NCBI GenBank assembly: GCA_032358255.1 | Contig: JAULBX010001780.1 | Span: forward strand, 62,001-126,000 | Reading direction: 5' to 3' | DNA length: 64,000 bases | Source: Heterotrichella gracilis | Lineage: Eukaryota > Sar > Xanthophyceae > Tribonematales > Xanthonemataceae | Part shown: positions 1 to 64,000 of the stretch, piece after piece | How positions within the stretch are numbered: position 1 is the stretch's first letter | How the letters are laid out: every line of letters begins with the position of its first letter | The notes under the pieces: model-generated | Databases searched by the model: none | Told to the model about the DNA's origin: nothing | The model's input: only the letters and a program-made list of their open reading frames with translations | Translations under genes and position numbers: made by a program

Positions 1-63
1 GTCGAGCTGGCACGCGCAATCCATCCCCATTTCGTCCCTGCCCCCTCCTCCCCTCGTCCCCAC

Positions 64-1595
64 ATGTACTGGAAGGTCAGCATCGACATGGCGTGCCCCC
101 TGACCCTATCGGAGGGTAACCTGGACCCCTACGATGGCTATGTGACCTACAGGCTGCTGCGTGCGGTGGCAGGGCATGCGGGGGTGCTGGCTGGGGAGAT
201 TGGGGATATGGAAAAGATGGTGAACCACAAGGTGAGGGGACTTCTTGGTGCCCATGGGGATTTAGGTAGGAGTATGGAAAGACGGGAAATTAAATGTAGA
301 TTGGGGATATGGGAAAGATGGTGAGCCAGAAGGTGAGGAGTGGTGATGTATCTTTTGTTAGGTTTTGGGGATGGCGGTGAATCAGAGAGTGCGGATGCGC
401 AATTGCAGCCCTGTATACCCCTGAGGGTAAGCGTGCAGTGGACAGTAGACGCTCACATAATGCCGCCACATGCATGCGCCAGATTGCGTGCACCTAACAC
501 CTGTGAGGAACCTATCTCACGGAATGATACCTAGGCATAACCTTCACCTATATCACGCGTTCAACTCTTATGAACAATCTGCACTAACTCCCTTTCCCTC
601 CCTTATTTCAGTACCCCTCCTACGCCAGCAGCGACCCCCTTGACCTAGGGGAGGCGCTGTGGCTGACGCACTGGGGAGGACAGGGGGAGATCGGGGACAG
701 GGAGGAGAGCATGGCGGGGAGGAGAGGTGGGTCGCAGCATGATGATAGGTTTGGTCATCATCTGATTGATCACATGTGACTCATTTGAAGCGGGGCATTA
801 ATGGAACGGGAGGCTCCCGCGCACTTGTAGTGCCCATGTATGGCCACTCAATGAGGGATGTAGTTTAGGGTTTCAGCTCACCCCACCTGGCCAAGCAGCT
901 TGGGACAACAATTCGTTGCCACCCCCCCCTCACCAACAAACTCACCATCATCACCCCCTTTGCAGCCCCGCCAGGTGGCGAGGCCTGGGCGCGCACCCTC
1001 ACCACACGCAGCCTGTCCACCTTGGATGCGCTGTGGGAGCGGGGGCTGTTCCGCCTGCCTCGCCACTCGCGCCTTGCGTTCAGGGAGATGGGGACCACGC
1101 TGGGGTTGCAGGTGGGGGTTAGGGTGTAGGAAGGTGGGGTTTGGGGTTTAGAGCTTCAAGGAGATGCGTGCGATGCTGGGTCTGCAGGTAGGGTTTAAGG
1201 TGTTGGGTTCCAAAATACAAGGGTGTGCCACCAACTTCTGTCATGACACTTTATGAATCATTTCCTGGCCTTTTCTGTGGCATTTCCTGGCATGTTTTCG
1301 CATGTTGCGTGTGGCAAGCTCAAATCTGAGTCCCCTTCCCACTGGCAGGAACGTACGTATCTCCAAATTGTTTTGATCATTTCAGTAAATTAAATATGTG
1401 TGGACGTGGCAGGTCAACCCCGAGTCCCCTCCCTACTGGCAGGGGCGCGTATCCTCCCTGCACCAGTTCTGGGAGCCGCACCGGTGCGAGAGGGACAGGG
1501 ACATCACACCTGTCATGCTGGGGGCCTCGCTGCTCCCGGGGGTGTGGAGGCAGGGGTACTGGGCGGGGCGCAGGCCCAGGAATCCAGAGCCATGA
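64..1595 (+). CDS. Unrecognised protein, 3' part (gene enters from the left)
   Basis: Four exons join in frame: up to 231, 612-726, 966-1111 and 1413-1595, with the stop at 1593-1595. The joins are phase 0, phase 1 and phase 0, which is strong support for one gene. The first visible exon may begin upstream of 64: a pyrimidine tract followed by AG lies near 80, so ATG 64 may be internal. The product is soluble, with short motifs such as LDPYDGYVTYRLL, LDALWERGLFRLP and ITPVMLGASLLPG. It has no obvious signal peptide or membrane segment, and I do not recognise the family. Introns 1 and 3 carry decayed copies of the preceding exon's 3' edge (293-333, 357-392 and 1154-1188), and the last intron carries a copy of part of the last exon (1327-1358). 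Confidence 0.55.
190..392 (+). repeat. Three-copy ladder of exon 3' edge plus donor in intron 1 of the first gene
   Basis: The real exon end (GATTGGGGATATGGAAAAG... then GTGAGG, about 190-237) is repeated at 293-337 with only a few changes. A more degenerate copy lies at 357-392. Each copy carries or nearly carries a GT donor. Confidence 0.7.
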
Positions 1596-2219
1596 TATAT
1601 GAGGTCGTTCACGTGTGATGTGTGGTTTTCTTGGTGCAACAGTTGGCATACTATGATCCATGGATTCAATCCACAGTTGAGAATACCTCTGTCAAAGTGC
1701 TGTTGACAGTGCGTTGCAAATGAGAAGGAACAACTTATTGAATAATATGATCCCACTTACCACTTAGGGGCGCACTCTGCATTATGCTACTATGATACTA
1801 TGATGATCATATCGGGGGCTCATGAGTATACTCTGATCAGCAAGCCCCTGCCAAGTGTGCCTGCCGCAGTGTTGGGCCACATTGGGTCGTTGGGCCATCC
1901 TTGTCAAGGATTGACTCCGCATCTACTTTAAAGGCTTCAAAGTTTGCGTGTCTGCTCATAACATGTCCAATGCACTACCCATGTGCCTGGACCAGCTTGT
2001 AGTTGTAGGATCTAACCGTCGATGACATGACATGTATATCAGACTTACTGTAAGCTACGAGGCTAGCAAAACTTTTGAAGCAGCAATTTTGATGTGTTAT
2101 GTACTGTCTAGATTGCCTTCCTCTGTCAGCGACTGCTAGTGGCCCTGTACCAGTTACAGGTACCCCGCCCACTGTGTGCCTGCCCCTGCCCAATGTCGTG
2201 GCAGATTGTATACAAGGCC
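1596..2219. other. Convergent intergenic region
   Basis: This is the 3' flank of the first gene facing the 3' end of CSN3. I see no coding signal. A TGTAA for CSN3 lies on the minus strand near 2154-2158. Confidence 0.5.
2154..2158 (-). promoter_or_regulatory. TGTAA poly(A) signal for CSN3
   Basis: TGTAA on the minus strand (TTACA on +) lies about 60 nt past the CSN3 stop codon. This is the usual green-algal poly(A) signal. Confidence 0.45.
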
Positions 2220-5597: not shown

Positions 5598-6113
5598 CGT
5601 TGCTGAGAAAACAGGAAACCCACTAATACTTTAAATAGTACAGCAGCATCAGTGGCGGCAAACAAACAGCGATGGGCAATGTGAGGTGGGCCCAGTCATG
5701 ACATGCCGTTGATCATGAGTGATGGCATTGGCCAAACTAAACGCTAATAGTCGAAAGCCTGCCGGGTTGCAAACGAGAAGCGGTCTGAAGGCTGTTTTGG
5801 GTATACGATATTGGTGTTTAAAACAGCCAAGTCCGGCTTAAACGGCTTATGATGTGATATCAAGACGTTTTGTCCAAAGTGCCCACCTCAGGTAGTTGGG
5901 CAGTGAGTGTGCCCAGCCAGGAATACTCGTACAGCTATATGTACACCGCCATATACCTTCAAAGCTTTAATACAACCTCAATAGGACTGAAGCCGTGGTA
6001 GTGTCCTGCTGTTTTCTTGCGACAGAGCTATCGACAAGACACGTTCACAACCGGTATATGCATGCATTGTAAGTAGCTTAACCCCAACCCTCAGCTGCTC
6101 CTCAGCTGTGTGC
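5598..6113. other. Divergent promoter region between CSN3 and the membrane protein/SAC1 pair
   Basis: About 515 bp lie between two divergently transcribed starts. It should hold both promoters and 5' UTRs. I see no clear TATA box or coding signal. Confidence 0.4.
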
Positions 6114-6335: not shown

Positions 6336-6360
6336 TGTCCCCCACGGGATCACAGCAATT

Positions 6361-9300
6361 ATGTACGCTGTGATGAGGATGCAAGTGGACGGGTCAGAGG
6401 TGGTGCTCCAGCCTCTGTCAGGCAAAACCGTGTCTGGCATGTCCCTGGTTGTTGACCTCTCGGCAGGGACCCTCAAGCTCACTGACCTGCCCAAGATCGA
6501 GGACAACTTTACGATGGTCCATGGTGTCCTTGGGTTCCTCAAGCTGCAAGGGGGGTCAGTGCTGGCGGTCATCACTGGGGCAGAGGAGGTATGGGATTGC
6601 AGCGTTACCCACTTTATTGTCTTGGTAGTATCAGGAGGTTGCACCTAGCATCAGATCTTGAGCAAGCTTCGCATGCTGTGATCATAAGCGCCGAGGAGGT
6701 ATCGCCTTGGGTGCTGCCTGTGCAGCTTTCTTTATCCACTTTGAAGTCAAGGCAGTATCAGGAGGTGGTCACACAGCAGTAGGAGTGTGAGCTCAGCAAC
6801 CTTGTGTGCTTGTCCTCCTAGGTGGCAGTCTTGCATGGCAGCCCCATCTACAAGGTCACCGCCACCAACGTGCTTGGCTGCAGCAACGACGTGCCGCATG
6901 CAGACGCAAACTACAGGTGAGTTAAGACACCCACAAACCTTCCTTCCCCTAAACCGACAGCCTCTTGGCATCATCTTTAGCAACATCCACTCACTTCACA
7001 AACCGACCACTCAGTTCAAAAGACCATATTGCTCAACCACAATGAAATGGCGATAGTTGGTGCTCGGTTTGGAGGTTTGCGTGCAGTTGTTATTGTAACC
7101 TGACTGCTACCCTAACTGTAACCCATGTGGTGCTGCAGCTTTGCCCAGCTGCTGAAGGAGGGGGTGGACCCCGCAGCGTTTGGCAGGGGGCTCTACTTCT
7201 CATATGGCCTGGACCTCACCCAGACCCGGCAGCGCGTTGCTGAGCTGGCAAAGGACCCAGCCAACGCGTCCAAGGCGCTGTATGAACGCGCGGAGCAGCG
7301 GTTCTTCTTCAACCACCACCTCGCTGCCCCACTCATAGGTAAGTACTCTATGCCCTTTCTACGAAGTTGGCATGCTGGATATGCTGCCAGCACTGGGCTT
7401 GGGAAGGATGACTCACCTGTAAGGACACTTCAGTTGTCTGCATTATAACAGAAGTGTACACCTGGGAGCAGTTGCCTGCAACCTGAGCAACAGCTCAATC
7501 ATCCTGCAAACTGCTGGAAAGTGACTAACCAGCCAACGACGGCGCAGAGGCTAAGCTGGACAAGTGGGTGCTCCCAGTCATCTTTGGCTTTGTGGAGCAG
7601 CTGGTGGACGTGGAGTTTGAGACGCCCTTCAAGCGCCAGGTGGCCACCATCACGCTCATCGCGCGCCGCACACTGGGCCGCACAGGCACGCGACACTGGC
7701 GCAGGGGCGCAGACCTGCAGGTGGGTGCTGCCTAAAGGGTTTGGGATTTGCTAGGGTTTTGTTAGGGTTGCGGTGTACAGGCATATGCGGAACTGGCGTA
7801 GGGGCGCAGTCCTGCAGGTGAGCATTCCTTAACCGCAACGTGATCAAATTCAGCGGCATGTGATCATTGCCATGTGTAATCGGTTATCATGCATGATCAC
7901 TGCGTATGGTTGTTAACCCATCAGTGATGAGCTACCCACATTTACCATGTGTGGTGCAAGGCAAGGTGGCCAATCTTGCCCCCAACCAATGGCCCATTAC
8001 AACCAATCAACCACCCACCCACTACTGACCGCTGCTGCCCTTGTACTGCAGGGCAAGGTGGCCAACTTTGTTGAGTCGGAGCAGATTGTGCAGATGCCGG
8101 AGAACAACGTGCTGTCGTCATTTGTGCAGATCCGCGGCTCCATCCCCCTGCTGTGGTCCCAGATCCCCAACATCAAGTACAAGCCACCCACGGTGATGGC
8201 GCCCACCCTGGAGGCGGAGGTGGGCTTTGAGATGCACTTCAACCGCCTGATAAAAAACTACGGGGTGAGTGTGTGCACTGCATGGGTGGCTGGTGATGCC
8301 AGGATTGAACTGCATGGTGCCGCATGTGCAAGGCTGCCTGCCAGCTGGCTGTGTTGCCGGAAAGCACAGAATTAAGCGGCGGTTATGTGCGTACCCCATG
8401 TGTGTACTACGTGACAGTGTGCAGCTTGCATGTGTGGACGCCATTCCATGTTGCTGCTGTACCTGTCTGCCTCTCCCGGAGGCCAACTATCCACCCGCCT
8501 AGCATCCACTGGCGTGTGGCTGAAAGCCTCCGCACACACATGCACGGATATCAGCCGCGGGCCGGACCACTCCCCTGGCACGTGGTTAAACTGCCTTGCA
8601 AAATGCCCGCACAGCCGCCTGGCCACCCCTTACACTGACATGCGTGCCCCTGGAGGGATTCATCTGTTGGTACTAGCCACACTGCCATCTGCCATGAGTG
8701 GGATATAATTACGCTGTTCTGTGGTGTCACGGGATGGCCTTGCGCCAAATCATGGCAGGCTTTCTCAGCGCAATAGGTGCTGTACCGTGGGGGGTTCAAC
8801 GGCTGTTTCTTTTTTTTTTACACTGATTCACAGCACACGACGAATGGTGAAAATCTTACAATTTTCCCAGAAATCATAGTTGGATCCTGGTATCTGCCGA
8901 GCTTACCCTGGGCATTTGTAACCGCTCTCGTCTAATTCTTTGGCTGTATGCGGTTCCAGGCGGTGACAGGTGTCACCCTGGCCAACTTCCACGGCACCGA
9001 GGGCCGCCTGACCGATGCGTACAAGGCGCTGGCTGCCAAGCTGGCTGCCAAGACTGACAAGTTCCACCTGGTGCCATTCGACTTCCACAAGGAGTGTGGG
9101 GCTACGCGCTACGACAGGTGAATGCGGTAGCTGGTTACAGCGTTCTTGTGGTACCCCTTTTTCCATGTAGCCCTTCCCACACCAGCGTATAGAGGGAAGC
9201 GCATGGCTTTGTATACAGCCGTTTGCTGGTATCTTCGAATCTGCCATGGCGTATTTTGATGTTTACAACGAGTTGTCCTTGCGACACAAAAATGCATAGC

Positions 9301-18043: not shown

Positions 18044-21000
18044 ATGCAGACGCACCACTTGCTGTTCGCCTGCACGGTCTGGGTCCTGGTTGCGTCTGGG
18101 GCGACACACCTGCTGCAAGATTCCACTCTGGGCCTTTCTGAAGTGAACTGGCAACCCGAGAGCAGCTACACCTACTTGGGCTCTCCCAGCATTGTCCAGC
18201 TCAGCAACGGCAGCATACTGACCAGCCACGACAAGTTTGGTCCAGCACCAGTACGTATTTTGCGCAGCGTTTTTGCCTAAGCTCACAATGCAGAAAGTCA
18301 GAACCACTGCTTGGTCTTGGGAACCGAATTCAATTATGCATGCATTCCAATTACATTTGCGTTACCCCAGCAATTCAATTGCGTACGAGCCCACAATGGG
18401 TGCGTTTGTTGCAGGTGCATATCCACACATTGTTACCTTGACACTGGTGTGTTGCCTCCCTAAGTAGTGACCAACTGTTATTGCACTCTTCCAAGTCCCT
18501 TGGTGCTCTATCCCTAGCTAAAACTGCAGTTGACACAACCCTTCCACTTTGAACCAGAACATAGGCCACGACACCTACGTGTACATCTCCAACGACCACG
18601 GGGCCACCTGGAGGTACGTGAGCAAGGCTACAGACCAGTACTGGAGCACGCTCTTCCTCCATGGGGGTGCAGTCTATCTCCTGGGGAGCAGCAGCAGTGG
18701 CCCGGGGAGCGACATACGCCTGTCCAAAAGCATCGACAGCGGGGCATCGTGGACACAGGTATGTGTTGGTCACTGAGGTGGCTACTTGTACTTTATGCGC
18801 CCACCGGGTCAGAAGCTTGTGACCCGCATTCCTTGAACCAGCTAGTCCTGTCCTGGCGTTGCTTTAGCCTTTGCACTACCGGTGCAACTTGCAGCTAACT
18901 GTCGCACAGCAGGTATGGTGCAAGCGCAACGCATCATGTCATGTGGTGTCCTGGTGCTTTCATGCAAGGGTTATCGCACTTTGCGGCGCAACTGATATGG
19001 CGCCTTCCTTCGCTCACAGCCCCTTTCCATTCCCTTCACCAGGTGGTCCTGTTCCCCAACCTGGGGTCGTTGGGAGCCTATGCCACCGGCCCCACACCAG
19101 TAACAGAAGCCAATGGTCGGCTGTGGCGTGGCATGGAGTTCTGGAGGGCGCCTTATCGCTGGCCACAGGTGGGGCAAAATTCCCATTTTTGTGACCACCA
19201 GTATGGTGGGATGAATTCCCCCACGCGTGCCATCCACCACCTCTGATACAGCACACTGGGACGCCTCCCCGCAGTGTGCATGGTGTGCAATACACCAACA
19301 TCGCCACGCAGTGCATGTCCTTAGTATGTCTCTGAGGAAGCATATCTGCTTGGCATTAGCCACTGTGTAACCCTTGCCGCAGGACTACGTTCAGGTTTTA
19401 GGGTGAATGGCTTACTGGTGCATGAGATGTTTTGTAACCCTTGCGCAGGACTACGAGGCAATGGTCATCTCAGTGGATGTGCACGCAGACATATTTGACT
19501 CACGTGCCTGGCAAACCACCCCGCCACTGCGATTCGACCCCAGCCTGCTCCCAGCCTGGGTGCCCCCACCGGTGACCATCTCAGGTACAAAGATCACTCG
19601 CTTTGTCCAAATTGCATTGAAATGGGCAGTGTGCGAGGACAGCCAGTGCATACAAGATTTACAAGATGTATTTGACAGACATTTTCAGGGAGCCGACCCG
19701 GGCTCACAAGACTCAACATCACAAATAAATGAGAAATTAATGTAACATTTTTATGTTAATTCATTAGTATTTGCTCTTAAGGTTATTGTTAGTTGTCGTA
19801 GTTGGTCGTTGTTATTTGTTGTTTCGTCCCGTCGCCTGCAGGGTACCTGGAGTGCAACGCAGTGGGTGCGCCCAGCGGGCGCCTGGCGGTGATCTGCCGG
19901 GCCAGCCTGATGAAGGCGGATTGGTCCTCACCCAGCCTGGACCTGGCGGTGATGCTGGAGTATGACAACGCAACCTCGCTGGATGACAAAACCAATGGTG
20001 CGGGACGTGGTGGTGGGAGGCCATTGTTGGACCAGGAATATATAACAGTGGGGGGAAAACACATTCTAATGCCGGCAGGCAGGCCCAGTGTATCAATGTA
20101 GGAAACTAACGACGTAATGAAAGGCAAAGGGCCTTTGCCCAGCCTGTTCCTTGCTTGCTGGAGAATGACAAAATCAGGGTGCGGCGACTGCATCTGCTTA
20201 CATGCAGCCCAGCAGTACAGTTAGATGAGCAGTCACCCTTGTATGGCTGGCGCCAAGCAGCAATGTCCTGGCAGGCCTTACACCATTACAACCCCTCCTC
20301 TTCCACTCCCCCTTCTTTTCCTATTTGAAGAGGTGGCTGCCCATGATTAAACGATGCGTGGTGATCCTGCAGGGCCCGCGGCGGCGCCTGGTGTTGGCAC
20401 CAGTGTGGGAGGAAGCACCTTTGGCAAGCTAGTGTGGAAGGGCATCATCAACATGCCGGGGGGTGGCAACAAATTCACCATTCGGCGGGACCCCAAAGCA
20501 AAGCTGTATGTGTCCCTCAACAACCCGGGGATCGACCGCATGGGCTTCGATCCCCGCAACGTGCTGGTGGTGATTGTGTCGGAGGACCTGGTCAATTGGA
20601 GGATCATCACCACGGTGCTTCAGGATGACACAGGTGTGTGGCAAACCCTAAATTGTAAAACCCTAAAAGGTTGGGTGGCAACCCTAGCTCCCAAGGGTGT
20701 GGGATGCATATACCATATTCGTTGCTGCATCAGTCAAGGAAACTCCATAGCTTACACAGGGTGTCCATTGTATTCCTCTCCCATGTTATTTATTGCGTTG
20801 CCACGTTTCCTTTCATGAGGACAGTCCTTGCCCCGCCTCCCTGGCCTACACAGGATCTTTACTTGTTCGCTTTTATCTTTATTTGTTTAATTCTTTTCTT
20901 CCTCATTGGCCTGCTTTTCCTCCCGTGCAGGCCAGACCTGGTCCGACTCCCTGGCCTACTCAGGCTACATACTTGTTTCTTCTATTATCATTTATATCCA

Positions 21001-46616: not shown

Positions 46617-46977
46617 GTAAGCACATGTTAGGCTTGGAGACAAGCAGCCATCTATTGGAGTTGTGCTTGGCTCTGGAGTAGCCTGGCAGGATGAAAGTGA
46701 TGTCTATGTCCAGCAATTTGGGGTGTTAGCAAACACCGGTGTTGGCAACGATGCATAGCTATGTACTGATACCAAACAGCGTAACCGGTAGCTGCGGGGG
46801 TTATCCCTGGACTGTCGTCAAGGTGACTTGAGGAACCCTATCATAACCCTAGCTAAGGGTTCATGTAGTGACCTGCTACATCTGCAAGCGCGCCAATGGC
46901 CCACATAACACATGTCTCCACAGTTTCGTGGCTGCAGAAACTCTTTGCTCCACAAGGCTGAAGGCTCAGGTGGCGGA

Positions 46978-47664
46978 TGTGTGTTCTGTATCCCCATCGC
47001 CATCGCCATCGTGCTCATGGTCATCCACTACATGGTCGCCTTTAGGCTGTTGATCATCCTCATCTACTTCATGTTTGAGGAGTACTGGGAGGTGCACAAC
47101 GCAGCGCTGTGGAAGAGGCTGTTAATCGGTGAGGGGCGAGGGTTTAGGGGCGAGGGGCGAGGGTTTAGGATGCAGCGATTACACAAGTTTGCTACCAACT
47201 GGCAAGGGACAGTTCTGGCAACTACCCTGCATCGTGGACAGTAATTTTGTGCTGGAGTTTATTATTCGTGTTAAGGAATATATGCAGGCACCTGGACTGG
47301 GCTGTGAGCAACGCTTTAGGGTGATTGGTGACAGGCCTGGCGCAGTGCACACGCCTGCCATGCGTGTTGAGCAAGTGAATGCATCGGATAGATACACGTG
47401 GAGTACATATCCCCATATTTCATGCGACATGACCTTTATTAAAATTTTCATGAATGTTGTTTGTACCATTTCCATCCCGCAGGCCTGTTTGTGTGGTTCA
47501 TCGCCCTTGCCTTCCCCGTCTTCGGCGTGATCAACGACCTGCTGGGCGCATTCACAACCACCTTTGAGACATTCACCATCCCCTGCCTGGCATACAACCT
47601 GCACTACCAGATCAGCAAGGGGGCGGAGGAGAACAGGTGGGAGCCCCCAAGCAGCCGCCCAAGT
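46978..47664 (+). pseudogene. Truncated AUX1-like pseudogene (exons 7 and 8 only)
   Basis: The exon 7-like part (to 47128, GTGAGG donor) reads IVLMVIHYMVAFRLL and YWEVHNAALWKRL. The exon 8-like part (47483-47664, CCCGCAG acceptor) reads FVWFIALAFPVFGVINDLLG and LAYNLHYQISKGAEENR. The intron between is also recognisably copied from 43180-43450. Near 47637 one G is missing relative to the parent, which shifts the frame after GAEENR. No other exons are present, so this is a segmental copy, not a second gene. Confidence 0.85.
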
Positions 47665-49571
47665 GATAAGCCCACAGCATGCTGCCAGACTGGGTGGTTT
47701 GGCCAGCCTGAGACTGATCCACTGGCATACCAGGTGGACATACCGTGTGCACCATTGATGTCCTTAGGATGTTTTGGTTGTCAACCCTCAATGAGCTGGG
47801 TCCATGTCCCTTCATGTGCATGTCTTGCTATCAGAGGGGTGATGGCTTCACTGTCGCTGTCCCAATTCAGCGGGGCTGTTTTCCCTTATTGAAGAAGAAA
47901 AAAAACTATTGTTTATTGCAGTAAAACATTCTCACCGTTGTATCCGAGCCATCACTGCACTGGGAAACTCTTATTTGAACATCTTATTTGAACAAGGTGC
48001 CGCGGGTTTCTTGGGGCAATTGTATGCTGTCAGCTAGTGAGCCATCACATGTGCGCATGCATGGATCGACGTGACCTCTAGACTTCAATATTTGCTAAGC
48101 CATTTAATAAGTTATGAATGCCCTGGGGCAGTCAGATGAGCTCATGAGTTCAGCAGTCTGGCAGCCCCAAAATGGCCAGAGTTTGCCATGGCCAATCACT
48201 GGGTCATGCAATTGCCACGTGAAGTTCAACTTGATGGTTGAAGAATCCTCATCTGCAGATGCCAACTGCGGGTCGTAATCATTCAGTGTTGAACATATGA
48301 ATCCACAATCCCTAGATTGATTGTGACTGGCAGTTGCGGCAATGGGCAGTCTAGACAGATGCTGTAAAATACAACGCCTTCCAACGTGCCAATGGTTTGA
48401 ATGTGGCGCCACATGCGCATCAAACTGAGTGCATAACCAACGTGGTTCAGAATTAATTCAATTGCAATGTTGGTGGTGAAGGTCCTGCCATTCAAGTAAC
48501 CACGCAACGTTCTTTTCTCAAAGTTTCTTTCTTCTAGATTAGATGGCGTGCATGTGAGGTCATGGAGATGAAGAGCACAAATATGCAGCTGCGCTGGCCG
48601 CAGTGCCACTGTTGCGGCAACTGGTATTATCCATTGTGGCATGGCATGTTCCCCATGTCCTAGCAACACAGCTTCACCTCTGTAACTGACCACCCTCAGC
48701 TGCTGCAGGTGCTCCTGAGCATTAAAATGGCAATTGATTGACCGTTCAGAAAAGGCCACCCAGCATTACTGGTGCAACAGCCCCGGACATTGTCCTGGCA
48801 CTGTCTGCTGCCATACCCTGCATCCTACATCATCTACAGCAACCTCTGCATCTTACCCCTGCCAAAGTACCTCTGCAGTAGGTGCTGTCCCCGCATACCA
48901 CTCGGGCTCATGCAGAAAAGGTCCCTTCCTTGAAGCGAAGTTCCCCCGGCAACCCTCCTTCCCCCTACCCGCCTGCCTTGGCAAGTAACTTGTGATCGCA
49001 GGAGCTCCTTCACTTCTCATTCAGTGCTGTCTGGCCCTACGTAGCCCCTCCAAGTTCGCTATCCCCCAAAGGCAAGGACGCCCCCATTCACTTAGATGCC
49101 CTCTCACCCTCCCCTTCCCTCTGATGCTTCACAAGGTCACGAAAGCTCCCACCACCCATGAACAGCGCTGCCCGCTGAAAGCATGGCTGACCACTGAGGT
49201 ATCGCTGCGCCCCCCCCATGTGAAATCCTAAACCCTAAACAGCGCTGCCTGATGAAGGCATTGCCGACCACCCAACCATGGTTGGTGGACCCCATGCCGG
49301 TCACAGCATGGGTGCGCCTCCCCATGGCAACGTGTCGAAGGCATGGCAGATCATTCAGGCATGGCTGTGACCCCGCCAGGTAAACCCTGCCTGGCATGGC
49401 TGACCCCGCCAGGCGAAACCCTGTCTGCCACCACCGCATGGCACCATGGGGACGCGTAGCTGCGCCCTCCTCCCCCAACCACCCCCTCTTTGCGCCTCTG
49501 CGTCCGACCGAATCCCACCACTCCTGGCTGGCATTCCGACCCTTTCCTCACCCCAGCCCCCCTCATCCACC
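47665..49571. other. Intergenic region
   Basis: A 158-codon minus-strand frame (48283-48759) is present but not supported. Diverged GGCATGGC..ACC repeats and one CCTAAACCCTAAAC motif lie at 49180-49430. Confidence 0.35.
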
Positions 49572-52500
49572 CTACTCCACGGGCGCCTTCTGCAAGCCCA
49601 GCAGGCGGATGTAGTCCACCCACAGCAACGACCCCAGGAAGGTGTTGCCGGTGCGCACAATGAAGGACAGGGCGGTGCAGATCTGCAAGGGGGGGGAGGG
49701 GGGGTGTCAAGGGGAGGTGCCAGGATGGCGATCGGGGAGGTATTCTTGGTGCGCTCGGGATTTTTTTCCCGGTGCGCACAATGAAGGACAGGGCAGTGCA
49801 GATCTGCAAGGGGGGGACAGGGGGTGTCAAGGGAACAATTCGATGCCTGGAGGTACAAGGATGGGGTGCGGGAGGCATCCCTGGTGCCTCCATGAGTAGC
49901 TTCTTGTTTGTGGTGGAACGTGTGGTGGATGGGCAAACCAAGAACACAATGGCTGCACTCCTATAGGTTGCACCCCTTGAAGCTACTAGTGATGTATGAC
50001 CCCATGCGCCACCCCCGACCTGTGGAGTTGGCGATCGCCACCTCTACCCCAGCTTCGACACTGGAATGCAGATACTTACCTCCACTGCACTCAACTCTGC
50101 CCTTCAGCTGTGGGTTCTTTTTGAACGCCACCTCAACCCCTTCCCCGCCCACCCCTCACATGTATTTCCCCCTAAACCCTACACCCTGATGGATGACCCG
50201 GTGCAACGCAACCCTTCACCCTAAAACCCACCCCTCACCTGTGGGTACTTTGCGAACATCACCTCTATCCCGCGCTCCTCCACCACCCCGGCAATGAGCT
50301 GGTAGCGCAGGTTGGAGGAGGTGGCCATGTAGGAGGCGTAGGCAGCGCTCATCACAAACACGTTCTGCGGCGGGGCAAAAAGAAGGGAGTAGGGTTTTAG
50401 CTGAGGGTTTACAAATCAGGAGGCGTAGACAGCGCTCATCATCACAAACACGTTCTGCGGCGCGGGAACGGGGAGGGTGGTAGGGTTTGGGAGTTTAGGG
50501 TTCAGCCGTGTGGACTAGGGTTTGTACAAAGGGGCTCCGGTTTTGGGGATGGATTCGATGACGTGGCCATGTAGGAGGCGTAGGCAGCACTCATCATAAA
50601 GAAAGGTTCTGCGACGCGAGGTATGTGTGTGTTTGGTGCCTAGAATTTAGCAGGGAGGCACGAGCCAACAACGATTGGTACAAAGGAAGGACAGGCGGTG
50701 CTTGCTAAATTAGGCAAAATAAACAGCAGCAGAGAAGTACGGAAATACAGCTCATGCGATACTACAGCGTCCTGTGAAATGCAACATACACTACAATCAA
50801 CAGCCAGAACAACTTGCAAGTGCTTGGCTCCCATTATGCAGACTGCTAATATGGCTGTGCATTCCATTCTACATGGGCTACTCAACTTGTTGATCAAACA
50901 ACTAAGCCTGCTTGTCTGTTGCGCATTCAGTGGCTGCCACGACAGGTCCATGGCCCATCTGACTTTGATGGTAATTGTATTTATTATCCACCCATATAAG
51001 AACGATACACATAGGTTACAATGCTCTTTACCTGCAGGCGAGTTGAGTGGCTCCCACACTGTTCCACAATCTGCCTCAATAGTGAGGCAAAAACAAGGTA
51101 CCAATATACGACATTCCAGCACCCTCCCTACCTGCGGTGAGTTGAGCGGCTCCCACGAAGGGTCCATGGCCTGCCTGGCCGCGATGAGCACGTTGGTGAT
51201 GCCCACGCCGATGAGCGAGGAGCAGCAGCCCACGCCCACCAGCTTGGTGCCGTTGCGCACCACCGCCCCAAAGCGCTGGGCAAGGGAGAAGGGCGCGTAG
51301 CCCGAGGGCACCTGGATGGGACAGAAAAGTGAATCTATTGCATGAAATAGCATCAAATGCTGCACTGATGCGTGTTCAACAATGAGTCACATGAAAGCAT
51401 ACTGACTCATATACTCATACCAAGGTGTATAGAAATAAGAATGCATATACTCATTTGAAATATAAGAAAATTTGAAAAATGGTCACAAAGATCCTGCCCT
51501 TGAGCGGGCTATAGGTCAACGAGGAGGATTTGGCGAGGAGGACATTGTCCTGGTTTATATGCTAGCGTCTCTGGCACCATGCAACAGGTCGGCGGCTGGT
51601 GGCCTGCCCTCCAGTGTCATGCTTTTTGGGCAAAGAGGAGGGCACTACCCTTTATCGATAAGTCCACTATGTCCCCCCACCACACCATGCCTTTTGAAAC
51701 ATATTGTCTGGGCATTTTAAGAAATTGAGCTAAAATGACTATGAAATAGCCCCCCAGACATGTATCTCTCAAGGCTAAGAATAGAGAGACCCAACACAGT
51801 GGTATGCGCTATACGATGACGTGGGCCTATCTCCACCATGTCACCCCGCCATGCCATACCTTTTGAAACATGTTGTCTGGGCAGGTGGCGAAGAAGCGGG
51901 ACACGGCGTTGGTGGTGGAGGAGGGTGCGCCCCTGCGAGTGGGTGAGGGAAGCGCGTGATGGTGGTGGGTTGAGACCAGGATGTACCCAAGAGAACGCTT
52001 CAGGAAGGGTGCGCCGCACGTGCACAGCCAGCATGCGTGCCCATCATTATTGCGCCATGAATGCATTACCCAGAGAGTGCGCCACACACAAATGCGCCAA
52101 CAAGAGGCGCGCCCACATGACTATGCCACCACAACCCATGAATAATTGGGTCTGGTAATAAACTCTACTCGAAGGACAGGGTGTGCGCCGCCAGCCCCAC
52201 CAGCAGAAATAATTGGGTTATCATAAACCCTAAACCCTAACCTTAACCCTACCTGAAGGACAGTGTAGGTGCCGGCAGCCACACCAGCATGAAGTCTGCA
52301 ATGAGCGCCATGATCACGTTGGCGAGCACAAAGTCCAGCTCGCTGTTGAAGGACTTGCCGCGCTTGCTGTATTCAGCAGCGCTCTTGGTGCAGATGCCGA
52401 TGCCAACCTGGACGAGGGATGAGTGAGTAAGCATGCGCTCAGCTAAGGTGGAAGCTGAGGGCTTAGGTTTGACTTGCTGGCTGCACTCAGCAGCCCTTTT

Positions 52501-55148: not shown

Positions 55149-55649
55149 CAAAGAGCGGCCTCGGGGATGGCTCTCCCTCAGACTGCCTCAACTCATTCAA
55201 CGCCCGGGCGCGCTCATGCTTTGAAAACAGAAGAGCATATATATCTACTTATTCATTTAAGTAGCTATAGCTACATTTATTTATCTACCCCCGAATGGTG
55301 ATCGCAGCGGTGGCCTTTCTCCCAATGGGTGCATGCCGTTGAACGAGATGGCAAACTGCCTCCTGCGAAGCCTGATCAATCCCACTCTAGTATACACCTC
55401 CTGCCTTGACTCTAGGACCTACTCCAGCAGGAAAGGTCCTGAAAATTACCGTTGAGAAGTACAGGCGGCCCTGAACAAACCAACAAGTCACCAATTTGTT
55501 CACTGGCTTTAGAGAACAGATCACATATATCACATACATAACATGATAGCAAACAACTTCCGTGCGCTATACTATACGAAGTGAGACATTTCATTAGGGG
55601 AAGCACAAGACGGTTGCAATCGGTAACTTTGCGGGCAGTGTTTGCACCA
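55149..55649. other. Intergenic region between MITE and segmental duplication
   Basis: AT-rich; nothing recognised. Confidence 0.35.
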
Positions 55650-56156
55650 GCCTGCCTGCTAGCTGGTTCTTCCCGAGCTTAGGGTTCAGGGTGACCTAGC
55701 ATCGACCGTATACCAAAGGGGCTGCTTGATTGCCGAGCTCGGCAGTCTTGTAGGTGCAGGATAAGCGGGAGTGTGCATAGTAGAAGGTGCAAATGAGTGC
55801 CTTACCCTCTTAGAGTCAGCAGCCTTATGCAGAACAAGATGTTCTGGCAAGGTGCAGCCTCAGACGAACGCTCTTACGACCCAAACTGCTCGCTAGTGCC
55901 GGTTGAGGCGCTGAAGCTGTTTCAAACTTATCAAGCCTGCACGCAAAGACCGTCCGTCTCACGTTACCCCACTCTGTCACCTGCCTGCCCTTTGCTGTCG
56001 CAGCTGGGGAGGGTCGCTCCACCGATGATGCACCTGGTCAGAGCACACACAGCGCCGCAGCCCGTGCGTGCGCGGTGCGCACGACTCGTCATGTGTCAAG
56101 ACGGAGCACCCAATGCGACACCCACAGGTGCCGGGCGGTAGCGCTGTGTAGGGGTA

Positions 56157-56795
56157 GTGGGTGGTGCCATGTGCACATGCATGCATGCGTGCGTGGCTAA
56201 AAAGTTGGGTCACCTCTTCCTGGTCTCCACAGCAGCGGTCTTTTCGTTTGCTGTGACACACGAAACCATTCCACACATAGGATTGGCCGCCCTTCGTCAT
56301 CCCACGACACAGTTGGTTTCCTGGGTAATGTTGCCGTGTGTAATTTCGATGTGGCTTGGCTGTGCAGCGAAGCGCTTGCACATCACGCTGCCCTCGGGCG
56401 AGCAGCGCAAGTTCCTTGTGGCTACTGATGCGGGGCTCAAGCGCTGGCTCAGTGGCACTGTTGGCTACGGTGACGCGAGGCTGCGTGACCTGGACACTTC
56501 AGAAGAGATCTTGGATCTCGAAGAGTTGGACGATGGAGGGCGCTACGAAGTCCTGCTTCCATATCGCGCCCGCCCAGCGCCTGAGAAGACAATCAACATC
56601 ACGTGGCCAGGGGACGGCACCAAGAACACCAGGCGCTGCTATGCGGGGCTTTCTCAGAAGTGGCTGGACAGCCTTCTCGACAGGGAGCTGTGTCAGGGTC
56701 TGAGGCCTGTGGATGAGCAGAATGTGGTGTTGACTCGCTTGGATCAGTTGGAGGCTGACCAGGAGTATGTGGCAGTACGCCGCTTCAACATCTGA
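56157..56795 (+). CDS. Gene A, copy 1: unrecognised protein with two related domains
   Basis: An uninterrupted 212-codon frame. The conserved part starts at about residue 71, directly after a CTGTGCAG acceptor at about 56366, so the first 70 residues may be intronic or 5' UTR. Residues about 74-135 (ITLPSGEQRKFLVATDAGLK..., ending ILDLEELDDGGRYEVLLP) and about 145-210 (INITWPGDGTK..., ending VVLTRLDQLEADQEYVAVRR) align with each other, which suggests an internal duplication of a small alpha/beta domain, perhaps ubiquitin-like. The family is not recognised. An upstream exon with LVPVEALKLFQT (about 55900) is possible. Confidence 0.55.
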   Translation: MGGAMCTCMHACVAKKLGHLFLVSTAAVFSFAVTHETIPHIGLAALRHPTTQLVSWVMLPCVISMWLGCAAKRLHITLPSGEQRKFLVATDAGLKRWLSGTVGYGDARLRDLDTSEEILDLEELDDGGRYEVLLPYRARPAPEKTINITWPGDGTKNTRRCYAGLSQKWLDSLLDRELCQGLRPVDEQNVVLTRLDQLEADQEYVAVRRFNI

Positions 56796-58041
56796 GGAGC
56801 CATGCTGAAGTTTGTGTTGGGCTAACAGCCAAGTTCCCTTGCCTGTGCTGTACTGACACAGGCGTTGCTGAGTGGATGCCTTTGCTGAAACCTTGCAACT
56901 GCTAGCGTCCAAGTTTGCCCAGTGTTGTTGTGTAGTGCGTCCAGCTGGATGGCTAAAGTTATGCCACACTTGGGGGTGTGAATCAAGCAGGCACGTGTAT
57001 TTTACCACCCCACAACAGTTTTTCCACACACAGCTATTGTTCCAGGCGTCGCCTAGCGGTTCTGTGTGTGCTGTCCTGCACCATCCTTGTGTCCTCATCC
57101 AACACAAGGAGGGCATGGCAAAACGTTTGCGTTGCAGACCTATCCGCACGTGTACATTATGTTGGTCAGACCTCAAACCCTTGGATACGGTTTGGACCTG
57201 CAGTTGTTTTTGTTGCAGGTGCACTGCATGCTTTGGTGACTAGCATATATATGCTCATGATAGGTTATCACATGTGACAGCGCGTGTAGGGTATTCAGCC
57301 TGGTAGGTAAACCTCAGGCTTTATCCTCACCCTTACTCATGCTGCCTGGCCATTAAATGTGCCATGCAGTATTTGCACTTGCCATATGTGGCATGCACTG
57401 ACCAGCTGTAAGCATGTGTTACTCAGTTCAATATCGAACAACTTGTATCTATAACAGTATGTTCCTTGTAATGAATATCTGTCAGATATTTCACACCTCC
57501 CCCAAGGAACAAAGTACACAACGCTGTTAGTGCCATTGCACTTGGCTAAAAAGTTCAGATCAAGCAGTCATCTAGGGATGCTGCAGCTTACTACTGTCCC
57601 ACCCTGAATTCCCTGCTTGGACTACGTGTGTTGTTTAAGTGCCCTAGCGGTGATAGGGCATCCACTAGAAACCCCAAAGTAGGGTATTGCGTACATGCAG
57701 AGCTAAACACGCTCCAAGGCATGACACACGCATTCCATCCACAAAGCCAGTGTAGCAGTCAGCCTTGCATAGTACACACAAATCAGTGTATCCTGAGTTC
57801 ATTTGTATTGCATACACCTGCAGCTGTGCCTACTTGAACAGCGTGTGTCTGATAATCGGATCAATCATCACCTTTTAATATTTGTAACATGCACAGATAT
57901 GGTACAGTAATACCAACGCTTTGCTTCAGCAACCCTTTTGTCAGGAAGGCCCAGACTGGCCAGCAACAAACCATGCATCGCTTGAGCAAGCACTAGAATC
58001 TCCAATTGCCATTTTGACCCTGGGCTAGCGCATCGTCGGCT

Positions 58042-59366
58042 TCAGTCCTTATCATCGCTGCCAAACAGGGCATGCATGCGCGCCTTGCAGTCCAAGGCAG
58101 CGATGATCATCGCAGTGCATTGCATGCGCCACCTGCACAAACAACGTAGCACATCTAGGCCTCACCCGGGTTTAGGGTCATGTGACACATGCCCAGGGTG
58201 TCTGTCGCAAAGAGCCCAGACCATAATGCAAGCAGAAGGACACAAAGCCGTGCAAACCACAGTGTGGCACCACATCCTGGCTCACAAACCCTAATCCCGT
58301 CTGGCACCACCCGCACCTGGTCCAGCTCCTTCCCCTCCTCCTCATCGCTATCATCAAACTGCGCAGCGGCTTGGTTCTTCTTGAGGGGGGAGGCTCGACA
58401 CCACCTTCCCCTTCCCCACCCACCTCTCCCACCACATCCACCTCCTTCTCATCCTCCAGGGTGGCGGGGGTGGTGGAAGTGGCTGCGCCGTAGCCAGCAC
58501 CACCCTCTGCAAGGGAGGGGAGGGGATTTCGATGTAAAGAACTTGCATCCTAATACCACACAGCCCACCAGCAGCAGCAAGCAGCCATTAATGTTGGAAT
58601 ATTCCAACATGCACACGCGCGTGTTCCATAATGCCCACTGGCCCGTGACGCTGCCACTTGTTGTGGGATGCAAGCCTAGAACATTTTTTAGTCTCTTTTT
58701 CTACCCTAAAATCCATGCTGCAAACGGAAGCATGGCACAGAAAGGCAGCCTATACCCCAACGCTTGTTCCTTCCCCTTCCCCCCAAACGCACTTGTTTCC
58801 CCCTGCTTCAACCTGCCTCCCCCTGGCTGCCCAGGGCTGGGCCCCACCCCCGCACCCCCTCCCTCCTCCTCATCGCTGCTGTCCAGGCCAGCAGCAGCCA
58901 GGGATGCCTTGCCCGCTGACTCCCCATCCTGCATCACACGTAATATGACTCCCCTTAGCACCATTGTGGGCCAAGGCTGCTGCAACGGCAGCTGCAAAAA
59001 ATGCTTGCAAGTTGAACATCCGTTCATGCCGAAGTCAGCGTCTAAGGCTGCTACTATCATGGAGTGACTATTCATGGCTAGGTGATAAAGCGGCAATTCC
59101 ATAGCGCCACGCCCCAGGGGTGCACCCCTACACCCCCGCATCCCCCTCCCTATCTACACCCTCCACCCGCTTCCTCCCACCCACCTTGGTGGTCGCCCCG
59201 CGCCCCCTCCCTCCTCCTCCTCCTCCTCCTCCTCCCCTTCCACATAATCCACATCCTCCTCCTCATCACCGTCGCTCTCAGCCAGGCCCGCTGCCTTGAG
59301 CCGCTCAACCGCAAACACAGGCTCGTCCATGTACTCAACCTCATTGTCGCCCACAACCATGTCGTC
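58042..59366 (-). pseudogene. Gene B, copy 1: acidic protein, probably broken
   Basis: It has the same exon set as copy 2: DNEVEYMDEP (about 59155-59366), GKASLAAAGLDSSDEEE (about 58800-58930), a penultimate exon (about 58321-58512) and the last exon. Relative to copy 2, one base is missing near 58385, in the run before AAGAAG, which puts the following DDSDEEE block out of frame. The last exon carries 22 extra bases before KARM.ALFGSDD. Both changes disrupt the reading frame. Confidence 0.65.
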
Positions 59367-59543
59367 CTGCGGGGAAGGGGGTGGGGAATTATTCAGTTAA
59401 ACAAACATATGTCAAAGTGAACAATAATGTATTCTAACATTTTGTACAAGGGGAATGGCGCATCCATGCACTGAATGTCACCCACCCACAGCCATGTCTC
59501 CCCACAGGGGTGTTTGCACACGAGTTATGCAATGGTGCAATAG

Positions 59544-59591
59544 CAAGGGTAATAAGATAATAATAGTCCTATTATTATCTTATTACCCTTG
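59544..59591. repeat. 48-nt palindrome with core AATAGTCCTATT, absent from the paralogous site
   Basis: Perfect 23-bp arms around a TC spacer. The other segmental copy has GAGTGATGCAAC...CACCCACCGCAG at this place (about 63750-63785) with no palindrome. Confidence 0.93.
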
Positions 59592-59967
59592 GCAAAAGCC
59601 CACCGCAGTCCTTCAAAGTATGGCCAACTCCTAGGTGTTGCAGATCACAGGGATGTGTGCACACCATTTATTTGCGAATATAAAGGGAGATAAGCGGGAA
59701 GTCAAAAGAAGGGGAATATAGGACACGTGGTCGCAGGGTCACAATAATAAACTAAAGAACCTACATCTTGGTTTTTACCCGGTTTACACACCTGTGGCAG
59801 CCAGCGCAATTATTGGCGTCAACCCTTAATCTATACAAGGCCACTACCATTGCTGCCTCTTCTAATTCTTATTCTCCACCTTGCCCCCATCCTCCTCGAT
59901 GGCGGCGCACAGTGTGAACCGTAACCACACCCTAAACCCTAACTAGTGTCCGTACCATTGCCTTGGC

Positions 59968-60075: not shown

Positions 60076-60789
60076 AACCCCAAACTGGACGGGAATGGGC
60101 AACATAGCCGGGGCCTCCCCGCTAGGAGTGCTATCTAGAATCCCCTATCTGGCCATGTGAACAACGCCTATCCCCTCTCCAACGAAATTGAGGAGGGCGA
60201 CGTAGGAGCCATACGTGTACTCTGTACCGGTGCCCACAAACCGCGGGTTTCCCACCTATTCCTGTATCCGCAGGTTGCAACCCACGACTGCCTGCTAGTT
60301 GGTTCTACCCTAGCTTAGGGTCCAGTACGACCTTGCAGGGGCTGTTTACAAGCAAGGGCCGATCATAACCTCGGCAGTCTAGTGATAGGTGCAGGGTGAG
60401 AGGGAGTGTGCAACGTGGATGGGTGCATCTGAGTGTCTTACTCTCTCAATCAGCAGCCTAATTCAATATAAGGTATTCTGACAAGATGCAGCTCGGACTG
60501 GTGCTTTTACGAACCAACTGCCTACTAGTGCCGGTTGAGGAGCTGAAGCTGTTTCAAACACTTATCAAGTCTGCACGCAAACCCGTGTGACGTTCCCCCT
60601 CTGTCACCTGCCTGCCCTTTGCTGTCGCAGCTGCGGACGGTATCTACACCCACAATGCACCTGGTCAGAGCGAATGTGCACACAGCGCCGCAGCCCGTGC
60701 GTGTGCGGTGCGCACGACTCGTCATGTGTCAAGACGGAGCACCCAATGCGACACCCACAGGTGCCGGGCGGTAGCGCTGTGTAGGGGTA

Positions 60790-61453
60790 GTGGGTGGTGC
60801 CATGTGCACATGCATGCATGCGTGCGTGGCTAAAAAGTTGGTTTACCTCTTCCTGGTCTCCACAGCAGCGGTCTTTTCGTTTGCTGTGACACACGAAACC
60901 ATTCCACATATAGGATTGGCCGCCCTTCGTCATCCCACGACACAGTTGGTTTATTGGGTTTCTCTACGGACAAGGTGCTTTGTTGCCGTGTGTAACATCG
61001 ATGTGGCTTGTTGTGCAGCGAAGCGCTTGTACTTGACGTTGCCCTCCGGCGAGCAGCGCAAGGTCATTGTACGTACTGATGAGGGGCTCAAGCGTTGGTT
61101 CAGGGGCACTGTTGGCTATGGTGACTCGAGGCTACGCGACCCGGACACTTAATAGAGATTTTGGAACTCGTAGACTTGGAGGATGAAGGCACTACCAAGT
61201 CCTGCTTCCATTTCGCGCCCGCCCAGTGCCTGAGAAGACAATCAACATCACGTGGCCAGGGGACGGCACCAAGCTTAAGGACACAAGGCACTGCTTTGTG
61301 GGACTTTCTCAGAAGTGGCTGGACAGCCTTCTCGACATGAAGCTGTGCCAGGGTCTGAGGCCTGTGGATTCAAAGGAGAATGTGGTGTTGACGCGCTTGG
61401 ATCAGTTGGAGGCTGGCAAGGAGTATGTGGCAGTACGCCGCGTCAACATCTGA
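60790..61453 (+). pseudogene. Gene A, copy 2: broken paralogue
   Basis: It opens like copy 1 and reads LTLPSGEQRKVIVRTDEGLK up to RLRDPDT. It then hits a TAA at about 61150 caused by a one-base deletion against copy 1. A further in-frame TAG and a second one-base deletion follow within 50 bp. After that the original frame returns (PEKTINITWPGDGTK to the end, YVAVRRVNI). The second domain alone (61226-61453) stays open. Confidence 0.75.
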
Positions 61454-62247
61454 GGAGCCATGCTGCAAGTTTGTGTTGGGCTAACAGCCAAGTTCCCTTG
61501 CCTGTGCTGTACTTGACACAGACGTTGCTGAGCACACGCCTTTGCTGAAACCTTGCAACTGCTAGCGTCCAAGTTTGTTTGTCCAGTATTGTTGTGTAGT
61601 GCGTCCAGCTGGACAGCTAAAGGTGTGCCACACTTGTGGGTGTGCATCCAGTAGTCACTTGTATATTACCACCCACAAAACTGTTTTTTCCACACACAGC
61701 TATTTCTCTTGCGCCCAGCGGTTCTGTGTGTGCTGCCCTGCACCACCCTTGTGTCCTCATCCTACACTGGGATGGCATGGCAAAACGTTTGCGGTGCAGC
61801 CACATCCGCACATGGACATTATGTTTGTTCAGACCGCGAACCCTTGGATACGGTTTGGACCTGCAGTTGCTGTTGTTGCAGGTGCAGTGCACGCTTTGGT
61901 GACTAGCATATGAGCTGATGGTTTGTTATTACACGCATTCCATCCACACAGCCAGTGTACCAGTCAGCCTTGCATAGTACACACCAACCAGTCTATCATT
62001 TGTATTGCATATACCTGCAGCCATGCCTACTTAAACAGCGTGTGTCTGATAATCGGATCAAACATTGCCTTTTAATATTTGTAACATGCACAGATATGGT
62101 ACAGTAATACCAACGCTTTGCTTCAGCAACCCTTTCGTCGGGAAGGCCCCAGCTGGCCAGCAACAACTCATGCATTGCTTGCTAATATCCCCTTGGAAGT
62201 TGCCTTTTCAGCATGTATTTTGACCCTGGGCTAGCGCGTCGTCGGCT

Positions 62248-63639
62248 TCAATCCTCGTCATCGCTGCCAAACAGCGCATCCATGCGCGCCTTGGACTGCT
62301 GCGCTGCAAGCGCCACCTGCACATACCAAGCACCACATCTAGGGTTTAGGGTCATGTGACACATGCCCGGGGGTGTCTGTCGCAAGAGCCCAGACCGTCG
62401 TGCAAGTGGCAGGACACAAAGACGTTCAAAACCCACTGTGGCCCCACATCCTGCTCACAAACCCTCATCCCTGATTGGCACCCCGCCCCATCAGATTCCT
62501 CCCCTCCGCCACCACACCCACCTGGTCCGTCTCATAAAACCCTAAATCCCTGCTGGCACCACACCAACCTGGTCCAGTTTCTAAACCTAAACCCTAAACC
62601 CCTTGTGGCACCACACGCACCTGGTCCGGCTCCTCCCCCTCCTCCTCATCGCTATCGTCAAACAGCGCAGCAGCTCGGCTCTTCTTGCGGGAGGGGGGCT
62701 CGCCACCACCTTCCCACTCCCCACCCACATCCCCCACCACATCCACGTCGTCCTCATCCTCCAGGCTGGCGGGGGTGGTGGATGGGGCTGCGCCATCGCC
62801 AGCACCACCCTCTGCAAGGGAGGGAAGGGGATTCTGATGTAAAGAACTTGCACCTTGATACCACACAGCCCACCACCAGCAGGAAGCAGCCATTTCAGAT
62901 TGCACACGCCTGTGTTCCACATTGCCCACTGGACGGTGCCACTTATAGGATGCAAGACCCAGAACACAGTTTTAAATTTATTTTCTACCCTACAAACCAT
63001 GCTGCAAACGCAAACATGTCACACGAAGGCAGCCTGCACCCCAAAACTTGTCCCTTACCCCCACGCACCTGTTTCCCGTCGCCGCTTCAACCTGCCCCCC
63101 CCTGGCTGCCCAGGGCTGGGCCCCACCCCCGCACCCCCTCCCTCCTCCTCATCGCTGCTGTCCAGGCCAGCAGCAGCCAGGGATGCCTTGCCCGCTGGCT
63201 CCCCATCCTGCGCCACACGTAATATGACTCCCCTTAGCACCATTGTGGGCCAAGGCTGCTGCAACGGCAGCTGCAAAAAATACTTGCAAGTTGAACATCC
63301 GTTCATGCCGAAGTCAAGGCTACCCTATCGTGGCTAGGTGATGAAATGGTAAACAATCCCATACCACCACCGCCCCAGGGATGCACCCCTACACCCCCGC
63401 ACCCCCTCCCTATCTACACCCTCCACCCGCTGCCTCCCACCCACCTTGCCGGCCGCCGCCGACCCCCCTTCCTCCTCCTCCTCCTCCTCCCCTTCCACAT
63501 AATCCGCATCCTCCTCCTCGTCCTCGTCGCTGTCTGCCAGGCCCGCTGCCTTAAGCCGCCGCCGCCGCTCAGCAGCCTCAGCCGCAGACACAGGCTCATC
63601 CATGTACTCAACCTCATTATCACCCACAACCATGTCGTC
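62248..63639 (-). CDS. Gene B, copy 2: acidic nuclear-type protein, C-terminal exons
   Basis: Four exons: 63445-63639, 63069-63207, 62621-62811 and 62248-62316. The visible protein reads DDMVVGDNEVEYMDEP, a KAAGLADSDEDEEED acidic run, GKASLAAAGLDSSDEEE, SRKKSRAAALFDDSDEEE, and ends KARMDALFGSDDED. The gene continues beyond the window. Long acidic runs with SD-E/D-rich sites and short basic patches are typical of chromatin or transcription-elongation factors. A CTR9/LEO1-like tail is one guess, not supported by a diagnostic motif. Confidence 0.6.
62499..62640 (-). repeat. Three copies of a gene B exon end plus donor with CCCTAAA spacers
   Basis: ACC(A)CACACC.ACCTGGTCC occurs at about 62511, 62560 and 62613. 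The first two copies are each followed on the + strand by AAACCCTAAATCCC or CTAAACCTAAACCCTAAACC. The paralogous segment has only one copy (about 58300-58325). Confidence 0.85.
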
Positions 63640-63669
63640 CTGCAAGGGGAGGGGTGGTTTACTTTAATA

Positions 63670-63722
63670 GGATTGGCGCATGTATGTACTCGACCTCATT
63701 GCCACCCACAACCATGTCCTGT
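63670..63722 (-). repeat. Copy of a gene B exon start with acceptor
   Basis: ATGTACTCGACCTCATTGCC and ACCCACAACCATGTC match the real exon start at 63601-63642. Confidence 0.85.
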
Positions 63723-64000
63723 GGTGTGGTGGTGTGGTGTGGTGCACACGAGTGATGCAACAATGGTTGCAACACCCACCGCAGTCTTTGAACCCAAGGT
63801 GTTGCAGATTGTACGCCCACCATTCAATGACCAATTAGAAGGAGATAACACGGAAGGGGAATATAAGAAACGTGGTCGCAGGGTCACAGGGTCACCCTTA
63901 ACCATACATGTAAAATATACATCTCAATTCTCACTGCTTTACACACCTACTAGGGTTTAGGGTGCATTTGCCAGCCAGCCCCATTACCGACGTCAACCCC

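Follow-up and report, generated by a model that had tools for sequence, protein, structure and literature searches.

How do the ends of exons come to be repeated within the introns that adjoin them, and why do telomere-like motifs lie between so many of the copies? The question is raised by a 64 000-nucleotide stretch of the Heterotrichella gracilis genome, bases 62001-126000 of contig C20, referred to below as the window. A preliminary description of the window reported introns holding copies of the adjacent exon edge, separated by CCCTAAA/TTTAGGG-like sequence, and proposed that introns grow by tandem duplication of the exon edge during break repair. Here, the window was analyzed together with 24 pieces of 10 kb from the same genome (68.5 Mb in 903 contigs), giving a pooled sample of 304 kb with 4.1 kb of N. 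Exons and introns were defined by a gene model self-trained on this sample, not by an annotation. It comprises 25 models and 328 introns with a median length of 314 nt, some adjacent genes being merged and some absent, and the splice consensus of its introns is clean.

Several genes of the window could be identified. Pfam confirmed COP9 signalosome subunit 3, the RETICULATA-related gene and ESCO, while PDB sequences confirmed SAC1 and AUX1. DHAD was confirmed by protein matches, the best named ones being mostly from green algae (Micractinium, Coccomyxa, Myrmecia and Trebouxia, with 77-80% identity); the top identity among the 120 matches listed is 80%, so that the species itself is not one of those listed. 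By these matches the DNA is that of a green alga. The sialidase-like gene matched no Pfam family, and its label, like that of the 'dioxygenase', is the one given in the preliminary description. The model edges used in DHAD, SAC1 and the AUX1-like gene are consistent with homologous proteins, and Pfam matches extend across those used in ESCO and the RETICULATA-related gene.

The edge tests covered the 316 introns of up to 2 kb and compared the terminal 100 nt of each adjoining exon with its own intron (score at least 34). A direct copy of the exon edge was found on 23 of the 316 donor sides and 23 of the 316 acceptor sides, and is present in 42 of the 316 modelled introns of the sample. Reverse-complemented edges gave 1/316 donor and 1/316 acceptor matches, and exon edges set against the introns of other genes gave none (0/1505 twice, that is 0/3010). 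The pooled sample contains 116 local direct repeats (at least 36 bits, within 400 bp) versus 33 inverted ones, and a dinucleotide shuffle of the sample yields 0. Exon-edge copying is thus confirmed as real and far above chance, more strongly than had been stated at the outset. Assembly error or chance would explain some simple-sequence matches, namely four pairs removed by the complexity filter used for the counts (a stricter earlier filter had lost true copies) and one of the 46 edge matches (L011 14163-14215), yet as the source of the copies they are hardly credible: apart from the empty shuffle, the edge copies have a median identity of 82.8%, unlike the near-identity of assembly doubling, and one copy is common to two paralogs.

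The copied segments straddle the splice site, which most listed edge copies include; they are a few tens to about 120 nt long and duplicated directly, often with telomere tracts of either strand between the copies. The start-to-start distance has a median of 113 bp and a range of 58-265, so that the spacing of 45-120 bp first given was only partly right. These are direct local duplications of tens of nucleotides, not of repeats, as in small tandem duplications at staggered breaks. They are clustered by gene model, with copies in 0 of 32 introns in one and 6 of 19 in another (P = 0.0024); region, expression or mixed sources could be the cause. Among the individual pieces, L013, L019, L023 and L027 have none in 32, 25, 15 and 24 introns, respectively, and L021, L025 and the window have many.

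The window alone contains 20 edge duplications plus five in unmodelled stretches, distributed over SAC1, the sialidase-like gene, DHAD, ESCO, the AUX1-like gene, the RETICULATA-related gene, gene B (62.2-63.8 kb) and others. On the forward strand, an unmodelled gene fragment (197-338) has an exon edge at 197-237, with the donor inside, and a 93% identical intron copy at 298-338 with no telomere motif between them. The donor edge of SAC1 (7682-7820; exon end 7720) is copied at 7777-7820, and AGGGTTT, TAGGGTTT and TTAGGGTT lie between. The sialidase-like acceptor edge and its copy (20806-21066; exon from 21031) are separated by a lag of 110 and carry no telomere motif. DHAD, also on the forward strand, has four such edges. 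Its donor edge at 23504-23847 (exon end 23637) has a decayed copy at 23716-23847, and when the Coccomyxa DHAD protein is aligned with the DNA the decayed copy is found at 23749-23853 with 51% identity versus 77% for the real exon. The acceptor edge at 23972-24212 (exon from 24157) has a copy at lag 113 with GGTTTAG...TAAACCCT between. The donor edge at 24762-25014 (exon end 24821) is copied from 24876 at lag 114, the two copies being separated by the telomere tract AAACCCTAAACCCTAAACCCTAAAACCCT at 24843-24871, and the Coccomyxa protein alignment passes over this copy at 24876-24952. The last donor edge, at 25421-25536 (exon end 25438), is copied at 25487-25536 and has a telomere tract at 25446-25463.

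Still on the forward strand, the ESCO acceptor edge (34626-34761; exon from 34721) has a copy at 34626-34675 and a telomere tract at 34675-34686. In the AUX1-like gene, an acceptor edge at 42698-42944 (exon from 42871) is copied at 42702-42775, a donor edge at 42994-43164 (exon end 43050) at 43091-43145 with TTAGGGTTT and GGTTTAGGG between, and a second acceptor edge at 43506-43726 (exon from 43659) at 43510-43579. On the reverse strand, an unmodelled gene has a donor edge and a 90% identical copy at 36647-36796, with a telomere tract at 36721-36735 between them. The RETICULATA-related gene, likewise reverse, shows an acceptor edge with a 93% identical copy and no telomere motif at 49645-49833, an acceptor edge with two copies and AAACCCTA motifs between at 50312-50616, and donor edges with one copy each at 51663-51883 (exon end 51860) and at 52161-52289 (exon end 52253; telomere tract 52224-52240). 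Finally, gene B on the same strand has three donor-edge copies joined by CCCTAAA-type tracts at 62474-62632, and an acceptor edge at 63593-63718 (exon 63403-63639) copied at 63675-63718.

Paralogs differ in some of these copies. At the site paralogous to the three donor-edge copies of gene B, 58293, there is one copy, still with a telomere motif; the acceptor copy of gene B has a more decayed counterpart near 59461; and the AUX1-like acceptor copy at 43510-43579 is absent from a partial paralog at 46951-47700. The process may have acted both before and after these gene duplications, or copies may have been lost. The paralogs belong to two tandem duplications. One, of about 4 kb with two genes in each half, pairs 55600-59800 with 60240-63960; three aligned stretches are 80-85% identical, and about 56.1-56.4 kb is nearly identical to 60.7-60.9 kb, which suggests gene conversion. 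In the other, 46951-47700 is a partial tandem copy of the AUX1-like gene with 95% identity in the exon and 69% in the intron, suggestive of conversion or constraint. A search for an allelic contig of one AUX1 region gave only this partial tandem paralog.

The motif between the copies is very probably the telomere repeat of this genome. Two-repeat TTTAGGG places number 5629 genome-wide versus 5 for the reversed control, and three-repeat places 834 versus 0. Six-repeat arrays give 63 overlapping matches: 31 lie no more than 273 bases from the start of a contig, 28 are on five more contigs and four are single, of which the one on C120 is interior. Interior telomere tracts are mostly short, and such short tracts of a genome's own telomere repeat away from chromosome ends are what is seen in interstitial telomeric sequences left by break repair. 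Coverage by telomere 7-mers in the pooled sample is 21.2 bases per kb in introns versus 5.1 for the control, 9.9 versus 3.5 in intergenic or unmodelled sequence, and 2.29 versus 2.28 in exons. Their density reaches 115 per kb between copies versus 46 elsewhere in the same introns, so that the enrichment at copy junctions first described is borne out; introns without edge copies have 18 per kb. Between young copies the density is 187 per kb versus 71 for older ones. A telomere 7-mer is present in 21 of 44 spacers versus 0.26 expected from equal intervals elsewhere in the same introns (two of the 46 spacers, outside the limits of 10-220 nt, were excluded), with 11/17 at a copy identity of at least 88% and 10/27 below. 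The other 23 of the 44 have no intact 7-mer, and therefore duplication does not need the filler.

The telomere motifs peak just within introns, at 10-25 nt from the donor and 25-50 nt from the acceptor, and one may ask whether they are selected splicing signals, G-runs at donors and CCCTAAAC as branch-point plus pyrimidine tract near acceptors, the duplications being incidental. CCCTAAA does exceed TTTAGGG near acceptors (-25 to -50; 31.1 versus 8.5 per kb), and splicing signals may contribute to the acceptor-side motifs. As a general account this is nevertheless improbable: near donors both telomere strands are equal, the spacers between copies hold the motifs at a higher density than the remainder of those introns, and multi-repeat tracts are unnecessary for such signals.

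At loci with three perfect repeats, duplicated flanks (score at least 34) were found in 10 of 20 versus 10 of 200 random places, the 20 loci being listed rows from contigs C11 to C27, taken with some rows skipped and irrespective of content, not a random draw. In young cases, the telomere tract is flanked by two copies with a median of 43.5 nt, resembling a target-site duplication; at L039, L042 and L043 the tract adjoins each copy with no more than one base between them, and at L046 and L048 whole units are repeated, in four and three copies. The remaining 10 of the 20 three-repeat loci and 6/6 two-repeat loci (L003-L008) had no duplicated flanks at score 34, and five of those 10 have a predicted splice site within about 35 nt. 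Across the pooled sample, telomere tracts of at least 12 nt number 82, and 28 of them have duplicated flanks (score 30); among intronic tracts the count is 22 of 69, 15 of the 22 spanning a modelled splice site. Merged into 23 loci and sorted by the author from gene model and sequence displays, the 28 rows comprise 19 loci at splice edges, one unclear (window 59929) and three elsewhere (window 25766, window 49227 and L009 4498).

A tract between two target copies resembles an insertion, and one could imagine a mobile element or introner that has telomere-like ends and leaves long target-site duplications. It is very improbable, however, as the insert is the telomere repeat alone in the cleanest cases and the introns share no family: only 10 similar pairs (19 introns) occur among the 316, of which two are tandem paralogs and eight show alignments of 46-96 nt, and no set of many introns alike along their length was found. 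As a separate observation, the eight other pairs, mostly in different genes (L017, L023, L013, L019, L031 and the window), share these 46-96-nt stretches, several in opposite orientation; they are perhaps a small dispersed element.

Among the 11 junctions at which copy and tract abut, 10 have at least one ancestral base in register with the repeat versus 25% expected, in a count read by eye with two array cases omitted; the register is alike at both tract ends. Of the 53 candidates in this part of the analysis, 27 had been picked for duplicated flanks. Two tests for telomerase polarity were negative: the tract lies within 2 nt of the expected primer end in 10/36 cases and of the other end in 14/36, and opposite-strand neighbours are G-then-C in 13 and C-then-G in 14, with no head-to-head excess. 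In arrays, the nearest copy scores best in 10 of 16, and the order expected from outer-edge growth is weak.

The duplications are nearly confined to exon-intron junctions. Local duplications (at least 36 bits, lag up to 300 bp) number 55 at edges, 11 within introns, 0 within exons and 11 in unmodelled sequence; in four of the 11 intron-internal ones a copy lies inside an exon, and at least three of the 11 unmodelled ones appear to be edges (window 197, window 36647 and the L011 copies at 388-578). If duplications were placed uniformly over introns, 27-34% of them would fall at edges. Under a strict definition, 54 of 66 cross a junction (p 1.6e-7 even when the expected odds are doubled, which is the author's estimate of the effect of slower decay of exon copies), as do 15/19 at an identity of at least 88% (p 0.011) and 8/9 at at least 92% (p 0.022). 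The duplicated unit is mainly exonic, with medians of 51 nt of exon and 13 nt of intron on donor sides (19 of 23 rows usable) and of 46 nt and 21 nt, respectively, on acceptor sides (16 of 23 rows usable), averages which omit the 4/23 donor and 7/23 acceptor rows that do not cross the edge; it holds less intron than uniform placement gives (p below 0.001). A young exception to the junction rule is the intron-internal direct repeat L021 5804-5888 / 6020-6104, of 85 nt and 98.8% identity, which has no telomere motif. This avoidance of intron interiors (55 edge versus 11 internal) is absent from the preliminary description, and random break repair tolerated in introns does not predict it.

Such a pattern would be expected from breaks that are mainly exonic, with only junction-spanning events surviving, and equally from targeting of the junctions themselves. 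Under the latter, duplication would be aimed at splice junctions and not at exons generally, through splicing-linked breaks, RNA-DNA hybrids, or diverged-template repair aborting at the exon/intron change. The near restriction to junctions and the small share of intron in the duplicated unit fit it equally well, and the peaks of telomere motifs just inside donors and acceptors speak for it. We nonetheless regard targeting as rather unlikely, as donors and acceptors are equally affected (23 and 23), which a donor- or acceptor-specific device does not predict, no strand bias is seen at +10 to +25 from donors (36.6 versus 43.9 per kb), and the intron-side break coincides with the end of the splice signals, a position that selection by itself would produce.

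The reading we favour, and hold to be probable, is that staggered breaks in or beside exons are filled in and rejoined with telomere-repeat filler, and that the survivors lengthen introns from their ends. The first step would be a break in or beside an exon, its staggered ends offset by tens of nt; filling in of the single-stranded ends would leave identical sequence on both; a short telomere tract would follow, its likeliest source being telomerase extending a 3′ end; and end joining would give copy-telomere-copy. An event wholly within an exon would ruin the gene and be lost, and one reaching past the splice site would be spliced out at the outer site, so that the gene survives with a longer intron. 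Later duplication of whole units would produce arrays, and copies would decay. Breaks or duplicating repair would have to be much commoner in exons and at their borders than in intron interiors. A combination of telomerase and CST fill-in is favoured because a 3′ overhang would be a suitable substrate for each; as neither polarity test was positive, the filler could also come from captured telomere fragments or another source. Contig C626 encodes a telomerase RNA-binding domain; a CTC1_2 search gave no match, its control searches being silent too.

The preliminary proposal is partly supported. Intron growth by exon-edge tandem duplication with telomere-like filler fits these data: the median length is 434 nt for introns with edge copies versus 290 nt for the others (p about 1e-6), most of the listed copies carry the splice site, and the same repeat as in the filler is present at contig starts. 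The part concerning break repair is an inference, and the tests gave no telomerase polarity. The spare donors and acceptors it foresaw are present in the sequence and might or might not be used or selected. Birth of new introns by edge duplication was considered and rejected, its signature being absent: an intron end repeating the upstream exon end and an intron start repeating the downstream exon start (score at least 22) were found in 0 and 1 of 313 introns, versus 1 and 0 of 304 in the null. More tentatively, a mutational process that leaves telomere-filled duplications, and affects exons or junctions many times as often as intron interiors, could be a main source of intron length in this lineage because only junction-spanning events survive, introns accreting from their ends and the telomere machinery shaping gene structure.

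Until now, intron lengthening and the places where break-repair scars survive, coding sequence not permitting them, have mostly been inferred from single cases. Here, a readable scar is present in about one in eight modelled introns of one genome, with many ages represented, so that the size, rate and target of small duplications become measurable. These introns offer a natural record of telomere-repeat addition at breaks, in which splicing acts as a filter letting gene damage survive at exon edges only.

A non-exhaustive search at title and abstract level found no description of telomere-filled exon-edge duplications. The individual ingredients are all known; what the literature searched does not describe, as far as the accounts drawn on here extend, is their scale, the telomere filler and, most of all, the near confinement to junctions. 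Direct repeats of 4-30 bp by splice sites, found by comparing both intron borders, have been read as break repair (PMC11782384); those described here are likewise direct, near splice sites and so read, but are longer copies of one edge, lie inside the intron and have telomere filler. In the potato RdRp gene, a duplication across an intron-exon boundary carries splice signals, as here, but concerns one gene and a new intron (PMC4974935), whereas here many genes are affected, existing introns are lengthened and the new-intron signature is absent. In nickase experiments, fill-in of 3′ overhangs by CST-guided Pol alpha-primase gave small tandem duplications, with overhangs of 43 bp (PMC8355091). 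Those duplications, too, are direct and of tens of nucleotides, and there involve staggered breaks and telomere-complex proteins; the breaks are induced and that account reports no telomere filler, whereas the duplications described here are natural, telomere-filled and at exon edges. Finally, in mammals telomere repeats are inserted at double-strand breaks as short interstitial sequences, and simple duplication accompanies 4.6% of the loci in rodents, 16% in primates and 4.5% in the horse, further cases being mixed; for human, these sources give no exon insertions and an intron share that fits random insertion (PMC2246262, PMC7215372). The tracts described here resemble them in being short and internal, in the register at their junctions, in the direct target duplication that sometimes accompanies them and in the lack of exon insertions, as seen in human. 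They differ in that duplication is rare in mammals, whereas here 10 of the 20 three-repeat loci are duplicated, at splice junctions.
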